From NCBI RefSeq assembly GCF_002078355.1, contig NZ_CP015363.1, forward strand, positions 1,550,001 through 1,614,000: a DNA stretch of 64,000 bases, in the 5' to 3' direction. Position numbers and translations under genes: made by a program. This DNA is from Ferroplasma acidiphilum (GTDB lineage: Archaea; Thermoplasmatota; Thermoplasmata; Thermoplasmatales; Thermoplasmataceae). The notes below the pieces were generated by a model. That model ran no database searches, was not told where the DNA came from, and saw nothing but the letters and a program-made list of their open reading frames with translations. Positions 25,972-29,845 of the stretch are shown one piece after another (position 1 is the first letter of the stretch; each line of letters begins with the position of its first letter).

Positions 25972-27381
25972 ATGCAAAATAAACCTTATGAAGGTAGTGT
26001 TTCAGACAGGCTTGAACGGATTCCATTCAGTTCAGTGCAGAGAGATTTCCTGCTGATGGTAGCCGGTGGAGAGTGGGCTGAAACTTTGATGTTGCTGGGC
26101 AATGGTGCAATTTTAGCACTGGTTGTATCTGTATTGGGAATTACACACAGCCTTGGTGCTACTATTATAACTACTGCATTCTTCCTCGGGGAGTTTGTGG
26201 GAAGTGCGTTCTTTGGATGGCTCGCAGATAGGAGGGGAAGAAAATTTGTCTTCCTTTATAATCTTCTGGTATTTTCATTCGGAATGCTTATAGCTGGATT
26301 CATGTCAGATCCATTCCTAATCGCCGTATTCATATTTATAGGTGGCATAGGTGTTGGTGGTGAGTTCCCCCTGGTGGACTCATTTACCACTGAAATGATG
26401 CCAGCAAAGGTTCGTGGCAACCGTCTGGCGTGGGTTTATACAATAGCTGTAACAGCTGGCTTTGTCATAGCGTTCCTGACATATGAAATGGATATAATAG
26501 CGCCGACTTATTACTCATGGAGAATACTATTCTGGTTCATGGCTGTGGTTGGATTCGCAATATGGGCCGTCAGGACAAGGCTTAAGGAATCACCAAGATG
26601 GCTTGAGGTACATGGAGAATACAAAAAAGCCAACGAAATTACCACTGAGTGGGAACAGAAAACTATGGAGAGAAAACATCTAAAGGAACTCCCGCCTGTT
26701 ACAACGAATACCCCCATTGAACAAAACAGAAGCAAATACAAGGATATTTTCGAACCGGATGTCAGGAAAAGGTCAATAATGATGATTATCTTCCAGTTCT
26801 TCCAATCCGGCATATTCTATGGATTTACAGCACTATCCCCATTATTCCTTATTGATAAGGGCTTTGACCTGCCAAAAACTCTGGAATTTACATTCCTGAT
26901 ATATGCTGGATTCTTCTTTGGGTCAGTATTCAATCTGTTCATAATAGACAAAGTTGAAAGAAAATGGGGAATAATAGGCACCGCTGTCCTCGCAGGAATA
27001 TTTGGAACTGCATTTGCAGTGGTGTCAAATGTATATCTGATTGTAATATTCGGATTCATAACAACATTCCTGCTATGGAATTTCTCAAATTTCTACCACG
27101 CTTACCAGGCAGAAATATTCCCTACAAGAATCAGGCCAACAGCTGCCGGAACAGTATATGCAGTCAGCAGGGTATCAACTGCAATTTTAACACTGTTTAT
27201 AGTTGATATATTCCTGCCGCATGGTGTTCTTGCAAGTTTCGGGATAATATGGGTTTTCATAGCCATAGTTGTTGTCGATATATGGGTTCTTGGTCCGAAA
27301 AGTTCTAAGGAACAGGTAGAAACAATAGCACAATTATATTGTCCCGTAAATATTTCCTATATATACCCTCTAAAAATATAA
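25972..27381 (+). CDS. MFS transporter, C-terminus extended by IS insertion
   Basis: A 12-helix major-facilitator carrier of the sugar/metabolite-H+ symporter type (469 residues as read). Loop 2-3 has WLADRRGRKFVF and the second half has IDKVERKWG. Tyr-rich FYHAYQAEIFPTRIRPTA matches the sugar-porter and aromatic/dicarboxylate-porter signature. TTTATATA lies about 25 nt before the ATG. Codons 451-454 (Thr-Ile-Ala-Gln) are the left 12-bp target duplication of an IS element. In the right copy the same codons are followed directly by TAA. The native protein was therefore 454 residues, and the last 15 residues come from the IS. Confidence 0.87.
   Translation: MQNKPYEGSVSDRLERIPFSSVQRDFLLMVAGGEWAETLMLLGNGAILALVVSVLGITHSLGATIITTAFFLGEFVGSAFFGWLADRRGRKFVFLYNLLVFSFGMLIAGFMSDPFLIAVFIFIGGIGVGGEFPLVDSFTTEMMPAKVRGNRLAWVYTIAVTAGFVIAFLTYEMDIIAPTYYSWRILFWFMAVVGFAIWAVRTRLKESPRWLEVHGEYKKANEITTEWEQKTMERKHLKELPPVTTNTPIEQNRSKYKDIFEPDVRKRSIMMIIFQFFQSGIFYGFTALSPLFLIDKGFDLPKTLEFTFLIYAGFFFGSVFNLFIIDKVERKWGIIGTAVLAGIFGTAFAVVSNVYLIVIFGFITTFLLWNFSNFYHAYQAEIFPTRIRPTAAGTVYAVSRVSTAILTLFIVDIFLPHGVLASFGIIWVFIAIVVVDIWVLGPKSSKEQVETIAQLYCPVNISYIYPLKI
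27322..27333 (+). repeat. Left target-site duplication of the IS481-like element
   Basis: ACAATAGCACAA, identical to 28318-28329. Confidence 0.85.
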
Positions 27382-28317
27382 TAAAAGAATATAAGCCCAG
27401 AATGAAGTTAAATGAGAAAAAAATAAAATATATAATAAGGGAGAAAAATAAGAGAAGATCATCTACAGAAATAGCTAAGGAAATGAAAATAACAACAAGG
27501 TATGTAAATTACATATACAAAAAATACAGGGATAATGGAGAATATACAATAGGTAAAAGGAAACATAGGGAATTAAACAGCAAGGATATAGAAATAGTTA
27601 AAAAAATAAGATATGAATACCCTATGTCAGGACCTGAAAGAATAAGGAAATACCTTAAAAGAAAGGGGATAATAATAGCTAAAAACAATATATACAGAAT
27701 ACTGTTATTATTAAATATGGTTGATAACAGCAATAATAAGAAGAAACAGAGAAAATATATAAAATATGAGAGGAAACATAGCAACTCACTATGGCATATG
27801 GACTGGACTAAATACAGTGACAGTGAGAAGTTAATAATAATAGAAGATGATGCTTCAAGGTTCATAGTAGGAATGGGAATATACGGTGAGGAAACAATAG
27901 ATAATACAATAGAAGCACTGGAAATAGCAATAAACACTTACGGTAAGCCTGAAGAGATATTAACAGACCATGGAACACAGTTCTTTTCAAATGGTAAGAA
28001 TGGAATACCTGGAGATCACAATAAGTTCCAGGAATACTTAGATAACAGTAATATAAAACACATACTTGGAAGGGTAAAACACCCTGAAACAAATGGAAAA
28101 CTGGAGAGATTAAACTATACCATAAAACGTTTAAGGCCATATTTCAGTACCTGGGAAGAGGTAGTATACCATTACAACTATGAAAGGATGCATGACTCAC
28201 TGTCAGATGGTGATAATATAGTTACACCAGCAATGGCATATAAAAATAAAATGGTGGTAAAATGAAAAAATATAAATTCATACAGTATATAAAGGAAATA
28301 ATAATGGGACAGTACAA
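27334..28317 (+). mobile_element. Complete IS481-like insertion sequence, 984 bp
   Basis: Both ends are visible. The left end TTATATTGTCCCGTAAAT and the reverse complement of the right end TTGTACTGTCCCATTATT agree at 13 of 18 positions, with an identical TGTCCC core. Perfect 12-bp direct repeats flank the element. A single transposase frame fills it. It lies at the very 3' end of the MFS gene. Intact ends and the perfect duplication imply recent insertion. Confidence 0.88.
27402..28265 (+). CDS. IS481-family-like DDE transposase
   Basis: A 287-residue transposase/integrase. An N-terminal helix-turn-helix region (KRRSSTEIAKEMKITTRYVN) is followed by an rve-type RNase H core with the three acidic residues visible: Asp in HMDWTKYS, Asp in LTDHGTQFF and Glu in TNGKLERLNY. 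A frame from a TTG at 27339 exists inside the terminal repeat, but the ATG at 27402 (MKLNEKKIKYI) is preferred. Codon use is strongly AT-rich (many ATA and AAA) compared with neighbours, as expected of a mobile gene. It appears intact. Confidence 0.88.
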   Translation: MKLNEKKIKYIIREKNKRRSSTEIAKEMKITTRYVNYIYKKYRDNGEYTIGKRKHRELNSKDIEIVKKIRYEYPMSGPERIRKYLKRKGIIIAKNNIYRILLLLNMVDNSNNKKKQRKYIKYERKHSNSLWHMDWTKYSDSEKLIIIEDDASRFIVGMGIYGEETIDNTIEALEIAINTYGKPEEILTDHGTQFFSNGKNGIPGDHNKFQEYLDNSNIKHILGRVKHPETNGKLERLNYTIKRLRPYFSTWEEVVYHYNYERMHDSLSDGDNIVTPAMAYKNKMVVK

Positions 28318-28506: not shown

Positions 28507-29751
28507 TTATGTTGTAACCGCTATGCATGCAGTAGCTATTATTAATCCAAACATGAGAAGGTATACAACCTCATTTTTCCTTGATAATACAAGGTCCCCC
28601 ATTATATTTTTGTTTCTGCCAATTATCCACATCATTGCCAGAGGTGCAATCAATGCAAAAACAAAGAATATAAGGAGATACAGGACAATTGCTATCATGC
28701 TTGATGGGTTGATAAGCATTATTGCTACTACGGCTGGCAGGCTTTCAAGTATATATATAATCCAGTATGATTTCTTTTTCAGGTTAAGAGATTCAGCTAT
28801 GCCCCATGCACTCCCGAGGGATATGGTAATAAGTGCAATAAAACCTGCAGCTATTAATCCTATTCCGAGGATAATTGGTGAGAAAGACCCTGCTACCGGA
28901 ATAAGTACTTTGCCAAGTTGCTGTGGAGTTGCAAAAAAGGATGAATGATTTGCATGTGGGATTCCCGCAAAAGCCATTTCAGCAATAACCATAAGAAGTT
29001 CAGTCACTATGGCTCCGGCGAGTGTTTCTTTGCGCATTATTCTGAGAGACCTGCGCCGTGTAATTCTTATATGTCCACCATCCAGATCACCGAGTTTCAA
29101 CCCGGTAGCTGATGCCTGGAAGAATATCATAAATGGCATTATTACTGCACCAACATTAGCTGCAAGCAGGAAGAAATACCCTGCGGTAGGTTTTATCAAT
29201 ATGGGGTTGGCCAGAGGTGATGACACAGGTATAATGCCTCTCAATGCCAGCGATAGAAGCAATGCGATTATCAAAAGCAGTGAAATTATAATAAGGGGCT
29301 TTTCAGCCTCGCTATATTTTTTTCTTGTAACAATTAATATGTGTATAACATATATAACTGGAATAGTATAATAAATTGAAAGGCCCATTATTTCCAGGCC
29401 TATTCCTATTCCAAGGTATTCAATGCCATAGGTTACCGTATCGGTTAAAGCCATGGGCAAAGCAACAATGGATGCTATTCTTTTCCCGTAATTCTTCCTG
29501 ACAATGTCCCCAAGCCCGCCTTTAGTTGCTATCCCGATCCTTCCAGCAAGTTCCTGAATCACATATAGCGGTATTATAAGAATGAGCATAAGCCATATTA
29601 AGCCGTATCCAAGAGTTGCACCGGTTTGTGCTGCTCCAATATATGAGGAGGCATCCATATCAGCCATCATGACAAGCCATGCAGGCCCGAATAGGGCGAT
29701 GGTATCCCTGTTTAATAATCTCCGCCTTTTATGTAAATCGTCTACGTCCAT
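28507..29751 (-). CDS. NRAMP-family metal-ion transporter with non-canonical binding motifs
   Basis: A 414-residue protein with about 11 membrane helices in the NRAMP fold. The start is RDTIALFGPAWLVMMADMDASS, then YIGAAQTGATLGYGLIW, clearly the NRAMP TM1 and TM2. The usual TM1 metal motif DPGN is replaced by a segment around DMDASS, and the usual TM6 MPH motif corresponds to IMPFMIFFQASA. Ligands therefore differ from those of Mn/Fe transporters. QELAGRIGIATKGGLGDIVR is well kept. Two DtxR/IdeR-like boxes in the promoter point to regulation by iron or manganese. A different divalent or trivalent ion, or a changed coordination, is possible. Confidence 0.82.
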   Translation of the reverse strand: MDVDDLHKRRRLLNRDTIALFGPAWLVMMADMDASSYIGAAQTGATLGYGLIWLMLILIIPLYVIQELAGRIGIATKGGLGDIVRKNYGKRIASIVALPMALTDTVTYGIEYLGIGIGLEIMGLSIYYTIPVIYVIHILIVTRKKYSEAEKPLIIISLLLIIALLLSLALRGIIPVSSPLANPILIKPTAGYFFLLAANVGAVIMPFMIFFQASATGLKLGDLDGGHIRITRRRSLRIMRKETLAGAIVTELLMVIAEMAFAGIPHANHSSFFATPQQLGKVLIPVAGSFSPIILGIGLIAAGFIALITISLGSAWGIAESLNLKKKSYWIIYILESLPAVVAIMLINPSSMIAIVLYLLIFFVFALIAPLAMMWIIGRNKNIMGDLVLSRKNEVVYLLMFGLIIATACIAVTT

Positions 29752-29797: not shown

Positions 29798-29845
29798 TTA
29801 GGTTAGCCAAAGTGTATATTTAAATGTTTGTTAGGCACACCTAAC
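29798..29845 (-). promoter_or_regulatory. Two DtxR/IdeR-like boxes flanking a TATA element
   Basis: TTAGGTTAGCC (29798-29808) equals 11 bases of the DtxR/IdeR consensus half-and-centre. GTTAGG-CACA-CCTAAC (29830-29845) is a perfect 6-4-6 palindrome with the same TTAGG/CCTAA halves. Between them, on the minus strand, lies TTTAAATA (about 29816-29823), the likely TATA box of the NRAMP-family gene starting at 29751. Binding would block transcription, consistent with metal-loaded repressor control. Confidence 0.7.

Follow-up and report, generated by a model that had tools for sequence, protein, structure and literature searches.

A DxxS/AxxM-type Nramp-related protein of Ferroplasma acidiphilum: a candidate DtxR-controlled Fe2+/Mn2+ importer of a separate clade

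The Nramp-related transporter gene found in the window, i.e. in the whole stretch of 64,000 nucleotides of Ferroplasma acidiphilum DNA that was analysed (Table 1), is, as judged from its sequence, a member of a distinct and widespread variant within the known NRAMP superfamily. From the protein sequence, its placement in a clade, the model of its fold, the conservation of the operators and the linkage with dtxR genes we favour, with moderate confidence, the reading that the gene encodes an Fe2+ and/or Mn2+ importer of a separate Nramp-related clade, which would be repressed by a DtxR-type protein and would probably work without the known proton coupling.

Table 1. Positions of the transporter gene, its metal-site motifs and its promoter elements in the window
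Feature	Position	Strand	Remarks
Nramp-related transporter gene	28507..29751	minus	Intact ORF, 414 aa, full-length NRAMP-fold protein
TM1 metal motif D33-A-S-S36	29644..29655	minus	Replaces DPGN (alignment)
TM3 Glu111	29419..29421	minus	Counterpart of Dra E134 / Bfra E116 (alignment); present in 39/39 class sequences of the type
TM6 motif A202-V-I-M205-P-F207	29131..29148	minus	AxxM retained, His of MPH replaced by Phe (alignment)
TATA-like element TTTAAATA	29817..29824	minus	Between the palindromes; read from sequence
DtxR/IdeR-type palindrome TTAGGTGTGCCTAA (minus-strand reading)	29831..29844	.	Upstream of the TATA box; perfect site
Second DtxR-type site TTTGGCTAACCTAA (minus-strand reading)	29798..29811	.	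Just downstream of the TATA box; one mismatch

The protein matches the Pfam family Nramp (PF01566) with an E value of 2.8e-42 and a score of 145.5 bits (cut-off 29.8), the match covering profile positions 4-356 of 357. With the NCBIfam equivalog models MntH and Nramp it stayed far under both cut-offs. It is the single PF01566 match in its own genome (one contig, 1,826,943 bases), and a second genome of the same species encodes a 97% identical protein. Sequence identity to the NRAMPs of solved structure is about 14-23%. When profiles were compared with the solved structures, EleNRMT was closest (1.2e-64), followed by BfraNramp (1.1e-27) and DraNramp (1.6e-27). In open-licence papers we saw neither the motif pair described below nor any NRAMP of Ferroplasma or Thermoplasma; PMC5473848 mentions manganese/divalent cation transporters without detail.

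Residues were mapped by alignment to DraNramp (8e6n) and EleNRMT (7qia). The sequences DMDASS and MPFM, from which the first-pass annotation had concluded that the metal motifs of TM1 and TM6 are altered, are both present in the ORF, whose ends are exactly as annotated. The alignment pairs D33, S36, A202, M205 and F207 with D56, N59, A227, M230 and H232 of DraNramp, respectively. Ser36 takes the place of the metal-binding Asn in the TM1 motif DPGN, as had been claimed; in TM6 the metal ligands Ala202 and Met205 are retained and the His of MPH alone is replaced (Phe207), so here the claim holds for the His only. The accompanying statement that the rest of the NRAMP sequence is well kept has to be given up in view of the identity values quoted above and of the replacements at Dra E124, D131, R352 and R353 (see below). 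According to the signatures listed in PMC8806188, DxxN-A/CxxM denotes SLC11, DxxN-AxxT NRAT and DxxG-TxxA/T NRMT. Of the canonical SLC11 signature the Ferroplasma protein has the TM6 half (A202-V-I-M205) and lacks the TM1 half (D33-A-S-S36 in place of DxxN). Its combination, DxxS-AxxM, is neither that of NRMT nor that of NRAT, in agreement with the earlier remark that the motif pair is unlike those of Mg and Al transporters. Clade B of the NRAMPs does not accommodate it either: the TM3/TM9 charges are absent as in clade B, yet DPGN and MPH are absent as well. A shift of the alignment that would restore equivalents of DPGN and MPH was found neither with DraNramp nor with EleNRMT, and was rejected; 38 further sequences of the class align in the same register. 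Chance or sequencing error as the source of the motifs was likewise rejected, since these 38 sequences carry the motifs and a second genome of the same species encodes the 97% identical protein.

When 200 genomes of the class were searched with Pfam, Nramp matches turned up in 50. Sorting of the sequences gave 7 of canonical and 13 of NRMT type, and 39 of the Ferroplasma type (including the protein from the window); L001 and L041, which duplicate the window gene, the partial sequence L024 and the stop-broken L061 had been left out before residues were counted. In the sequences of the type Asp56, Glu134, Ala227 and Met230 (Dra numbering) are present in 39/39, position 59 is Ser in 38 and Cys in one, the position of His232 is occupied by Phe in 30 and by Trp in nine, and that of Asp131 by Tyr in 38 and by Phe in one. 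Eight genomes of the class carry an NRMT and a protein of this type together, and two carry the type together with a canonical NRAMP. The substitutions mark a broad existing clade rather than a one-off change. At the position of Dra Q378 (TM10), where canonical and NRMT sequences of the class have Gln, the Ferroplasma protein has Leu (L360) and the clade has Met (24/39) or Leu (15/39); such a Met could supply a second thioether near the metal. In the broken gene L061 (G059:C1:922874-923935), which belongs to a genome of the same family, an in-frame TGA disrupts the coding sequence, yet a 10/10 palindrome (see below) is still present upstream.

A scan of named genomes with TM1 and TM6 peptide patterns yielded at least 534 relatives, 80 of which were retained. 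Because the patterns included TM6, the TM6 conservation in these 80 loci of at least 534 is partly built in; in this set the TM1 Ser alone is informative, and the Pfam-based class survey is the fair sample. Position 59 is Ser in 75, Cys in four and missing in one (80 of at least 534 relatives). The relatives were found in archaea (Thermoplasmata, Sulfolobales, Thaumarchaeota/Nitrososphaerales, Micrarchaeota and Bathyarchaeota) and in Thermotogota, Bacteroidota, Omnitrophota, Chloroflexi and others. One locus of the 80 (L141) has Glu in place of Asp. In another clade member, L132:4001-5164 from a Gagatemarchaeum MAG, the TM6 Ala and Met are changed to Ser and Val; another copy in the same MAG (L128) has the usual AxxM.

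In a tree of 72 rows (IQ-TREE, quick search), built like the other trees without YcsG and clade B sequences, the 48 rows of the Ferroplasma type stood on their own side of a branch with an SH-aLRT value of 96, which separated them from the rows of 15 NRMTs and 7 canonical NRAMPs. After removal of the motif and proton-pathway columns the value of the clade branch was 99, and the NRMTs then need two changes. The comparison with the NRAMP and NRMT groups, which the first-pass annotation had proposed as a check, thus assigns the type a separate branch. The Ferroplasma protein displays all the characters of this DxxS/AxxM clade: Ser/Cys at Dra 59, AxxM, Phe/Trp at Dra 232, the TM3 Glu and the position on the branch. 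Nramp-related proteins are described in the 2026 preprint PMC12873925 as paraphyletic, diverse in their motif residues and mostly uncharacterised, most of the groups being called entirely uncharacterised; the DxxS/AxxM clade may be one of them. The orphan outgroup of PMC10606218, to judge from the mutants named there, seems to have Gly instead of the Asp, and Thr instead of both the Asn and the Ala, and therefore probably differs from the DxxS/AxxM clade.

The AlphaFold2 model, computed with 38 sequences (mean pLDDT 92.2, pTM 0.91), predicts an NRAMP fold in which helices are interrupted near residues 30-33 and 204-205; it provides the structural view of TM1 and TM6 that had also been proposed. 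The best match among solved structures was outward-open DraNramp (Z 47.2), followed by EleNRMT (41.8-42.1), BfraNramp (38.9) and a model of YcsG (35.1), a ranking that gives no decision between canonical NRAMP and NRMT.

Set beside known systems, the protein shares with canonical NRAMP/MntH (DraNramp 6d91, 8e60) the fold, the TM1 Asp, the TM6 AxxM and the TM3 Glu, and differs from it, at a structural identity of 14-18%, by the absence of the TM1 Asn, the TM6 His and the TM3/TM9 proton-pathway charges. To EleNRMT (7qia, Z 41.8) it is similar in fold, in having its nearest profile there, in the TM1 Asp and TM3 Glu, in the aromatic residue after MP/AP in TM6 and in the absence of proton-pathway charges; the difference lies in the motifs (DxxG and TxxA/T against DxxS and AxxM) and in the separate branch. 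BfraNramp (10ky, 10le) of clade B, described in PMC12873925 as a proton-independent Mn2+ uniporter, also has AxxM and the TM3 Glu and lacks the TM3/TM9 charges, but clade B has the full DPGN and MPH, whereas in the Ferroplasma protein the Asn has become Ser and the His has become Phe. YcsG/MntG (PMC10448178) is likened here by fold (model 9a52) and published description: it is Nramp-related and controlled by a DtxR-family regulator, and belongs to the 'G-motif 3' group of PMC12873925. Two bacterial plasmid proteins, from Lactiplantibacillus (L163) and Acidithiobacillus (L166), have Ser/Cys at the Asn position, AxxM-P-W and the TM3 Glu (motifs DAGC/AVIMPW and DVGS/AVIMPW); they fall outside the 48-row clade.

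Neither the TM6 His nor the TM3/TM9 proton-pathway charges typical of canonical NRAMPs are present in the Ferroplasma protein. F207 occupies the position of the His, A101, Y108, S328 and Y329 align with Dra E124, D131, R352 and R353, and E134 is kept as E111. Because these residues are absent, metal uptake is probably not proton-coupled by the known route. In PMC12873925, BfraNramp, which is without the TM3/TM9 charges, is described as transporting Mn2+ without protons and as binding Mn2+ through the TM3 Glu and not through the TM1 Asn, the N41A mutation being milder than E116A or D38A. An outgroup that retains the TM3 Glu alone from the proton network is described by Cellier (PMC9606685, PMC10606218). 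The coupling may be unusual, and to this extent the earlier suggestion that ion choice or coupling could be new stands; its other half, a new ion, is not supported, since the protein retains the Met and Ala that act against alkaline-earth ions, and the DtxR-type operators on the gene point to Fe2+ or Mn2+. The choice of ion is probably ordinary.

The arms of the promoter palindromes resemble the consensus of the DtxR/IdeR operator. The two sites bracket the TATA-like element, which is identical in the same-species genome L040, and this arrangement would suit repression. In the whole genome the perfect sequence TTAGG-N4-CCTAA occurs at two places only, upstream of the transporter gene and at 1529575; sites with one mismatch elsewhere include one at 733914. 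The other perfect palindrome (G000:C1:1529575-1529588; L078:3076-3089) is located directly upstream of an MFS transporter ORF (L078:3099-4364), which is a possible second member of the DtxR regulon. To see whether such sites are conserved, the 330 nucleotides ahead of 39 clade genes (L061 included; L001, a copy, and L055, whose anchor was not found, left out) were scanned for TTAGG-N4-CCTAA or TAAGG-N4-CCTTA, the latter pattern having been added after sites had been inspected, and the expectation was derived from shuffles. A 10/10 palindrome was found upstream of 20 genes (0.01 expected) and one of at least 9 upstream of 24 (0.63 expected), figures that reflect conservation and not separate origins because the related genes are not independent. 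Among controls, at least 9 was reached by 1 of 20 NRMT or canonical genes and by 7 of 120 neighbouring ORFs; judged by coordinates, the intergenic region of six of these seven is also that of the transporter or of its dtxR, and the seventh runs antisense over the transporter. The remaining 15 of the 39 clade genes, among them f12 members, L045, L048, L058, L023 and L035, had no site of at least 9 within the 330 nucleotides. This counts against the favoured reading; in L023 and L035, however, dtxR overlaps the transporter gene, and the palindrome is located upstream of dtxR instead.

A dtxR-type ORF was present in 22 of 143 loci with an Nramp-like ORF, a count in which two pairs represent the same place twice and L103 is weak. 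In the class set a dtxR-type gene lies near the transporter in 11 of 40 clade loci versus none of 20 NRMT or canonical loci; in nine of the 11 it is directly upstream on the same strand, in one divergent and in one at a distance of 2.4 kb. In Athalassotoga and Mesoaciditoga the regulator is downstream of the transporter, and on an Athalassotoga plasmid the NRAMP gene is followed by a gene annotated as 'metal-dependent transcriptional regulator'. The genome of F. acidiphilum itself has one PF01325 match (G000:C1:1230258), a protein with both iron-dependent-repressor domains, the nearest solved chains of which are 6o5c, SloR, ScaR and 4o5v. It is 55% identical to the product of the transporter-adjacent dtxR of L035, and 32% to that of L026 (same genus). 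With a conserved promoter palindrome and a DtxR-family protein in the genome, the gene is a predicted member of a DtxR/IdeR regulon.

As precedents for an Fe2+/Mn2+ importer that is repressed by DtxR and is probably proton-independent we take BfraNramp (see above), the TM6 Met of EcoDMT, which counter-selects Ca2+, a triple NRMT-like mutant still transporting Mn2+ and showing no interaction with Mg2+ (PMC8806188), and the B. subtilis protein YcsG/MntG, an Mn2+ importer repressed by MntR (PMC10448178). The Ferroplasma protein would be a LeuT-fold importer holding the metal between the unwound parts of TM1 and TM6. The ligands of the ion would be D33, the thioether of M205 and carbonyl groups of the backbone; S36 would stand where canonical proteins have Asn, and the TM3 residue E111 would be nearby. 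Preference for transition metals over Ca2+ and Mg2+ would come from the retained Met and Ala. Transport may be by uniport. In the proposed regulation, a repressor of the DtxR family carrying Fe2+ or Mn2+ would occupy the two putative operators around the TATA box and keep the gene off when metal is sufficient. Family searches of the genome gave no match for FeoB (FeoB_C), ZIP (Zip), ZnuA or a second Nramp, so that, of the families searched, Nramp provides the foremost candidate for taking up Fe/Mn. The missing TM1 Asn ligand counts against the Fe2+/Mn2+ reading, as does the fact that the profile-nearest solved structure is that of an Mg2+ transporter, EleNRMT.

Acidophiles maintain a strong inward proton gradient, which would favour a proton-coupled Fe2+/Mn2+ importer in which other residues stand in for the known pathway. 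Candidates for this role exist, as E111, E251 and E336 are invariant in the 38 aligned sequences and D31 is present in at least 90%. We nevertheless regard such coupling as unlikely, since the known His and salt-bridge positions are lost and the two studied relatives without these residues, BfraNramp and EleNRMT, move no protons according to PMC12873925. If the protein were instead an NRMT-like transporter of Mg2+ in which the binding site is a variant, this would agree with the profile comparison and with what it shares with NRMTs: D54, an aromatic residue at Dra 232, a Gln at Dra 237 and the absence of the proton pathway. The genome, moreover, has no family match for CorA or MgtE, which leaves Mg2+ uptake unaccounted for, so that the protein could contribute to it. 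Membership in NRMT was rejected on the signature (Ser, Ala and Met instead of DxxG-TxxA/T) and on the separate branch in the tree, despite EleNRMT being nearest by profile. Taking into account also that NRMT and the DxxS/AxxM type coexist in eight genomes of the class, and that the DtxR-type sites and the dtxR linkage of the clade are hardly seen at NRMT genes, we hold such an Mg2+ transporter to be quite improbable.

The metal-rich acid in which the organism lives, and the ability of B. subtilis MntR and Fur to activate efflux systems as well (PMC9993123), might suggest a metal exporter or detoxification protein with DtxR as activator. The position of the sites on both sides of the TATA box, which would suit repression, and the fact that the characterised PF01566 members considered are importers make this a very remote alternative to the DtxR-repressed importer.

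It is conceivable, though we advance it tentatively, that the clade represents a further functional class of PF01566, DtxR-controlled uniporters of Fe2+ (or Mn2+) with a Ser/Met site, without the proton pathway and with the TM3 Glu replacing the Asn in coordination; this class would be frequent among acidophilic archaea and would extend to several phyla of bacteria. If so, an importer that has lost its coupling to protons would not let them leak in near pH 1. The clade bears on how NRAMPs gained metal choice and proton coupling, as it shows these features in a different combination: the transition-metal Met persists without the TM1 Asn, without the TM6 His and without the proton pathway. Its acid-living archaeal members are natural material for structural and transport work. 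Assuming that the importer reading is true, the likely Fe or Mn importer of Ferroplasma, in whose genome FeoB, ZIP, ZnuA and canonical MntH had no match in the family searches, would be named.

Just downstream of the transporter gene, and facing it, ends an rve-type transposase ORF (27339-28265) that extends over the 3' end of the ORF for an MFS transporter (25972-27381). The transposase ORF may have truncated the C-terminus of this MFS protein.
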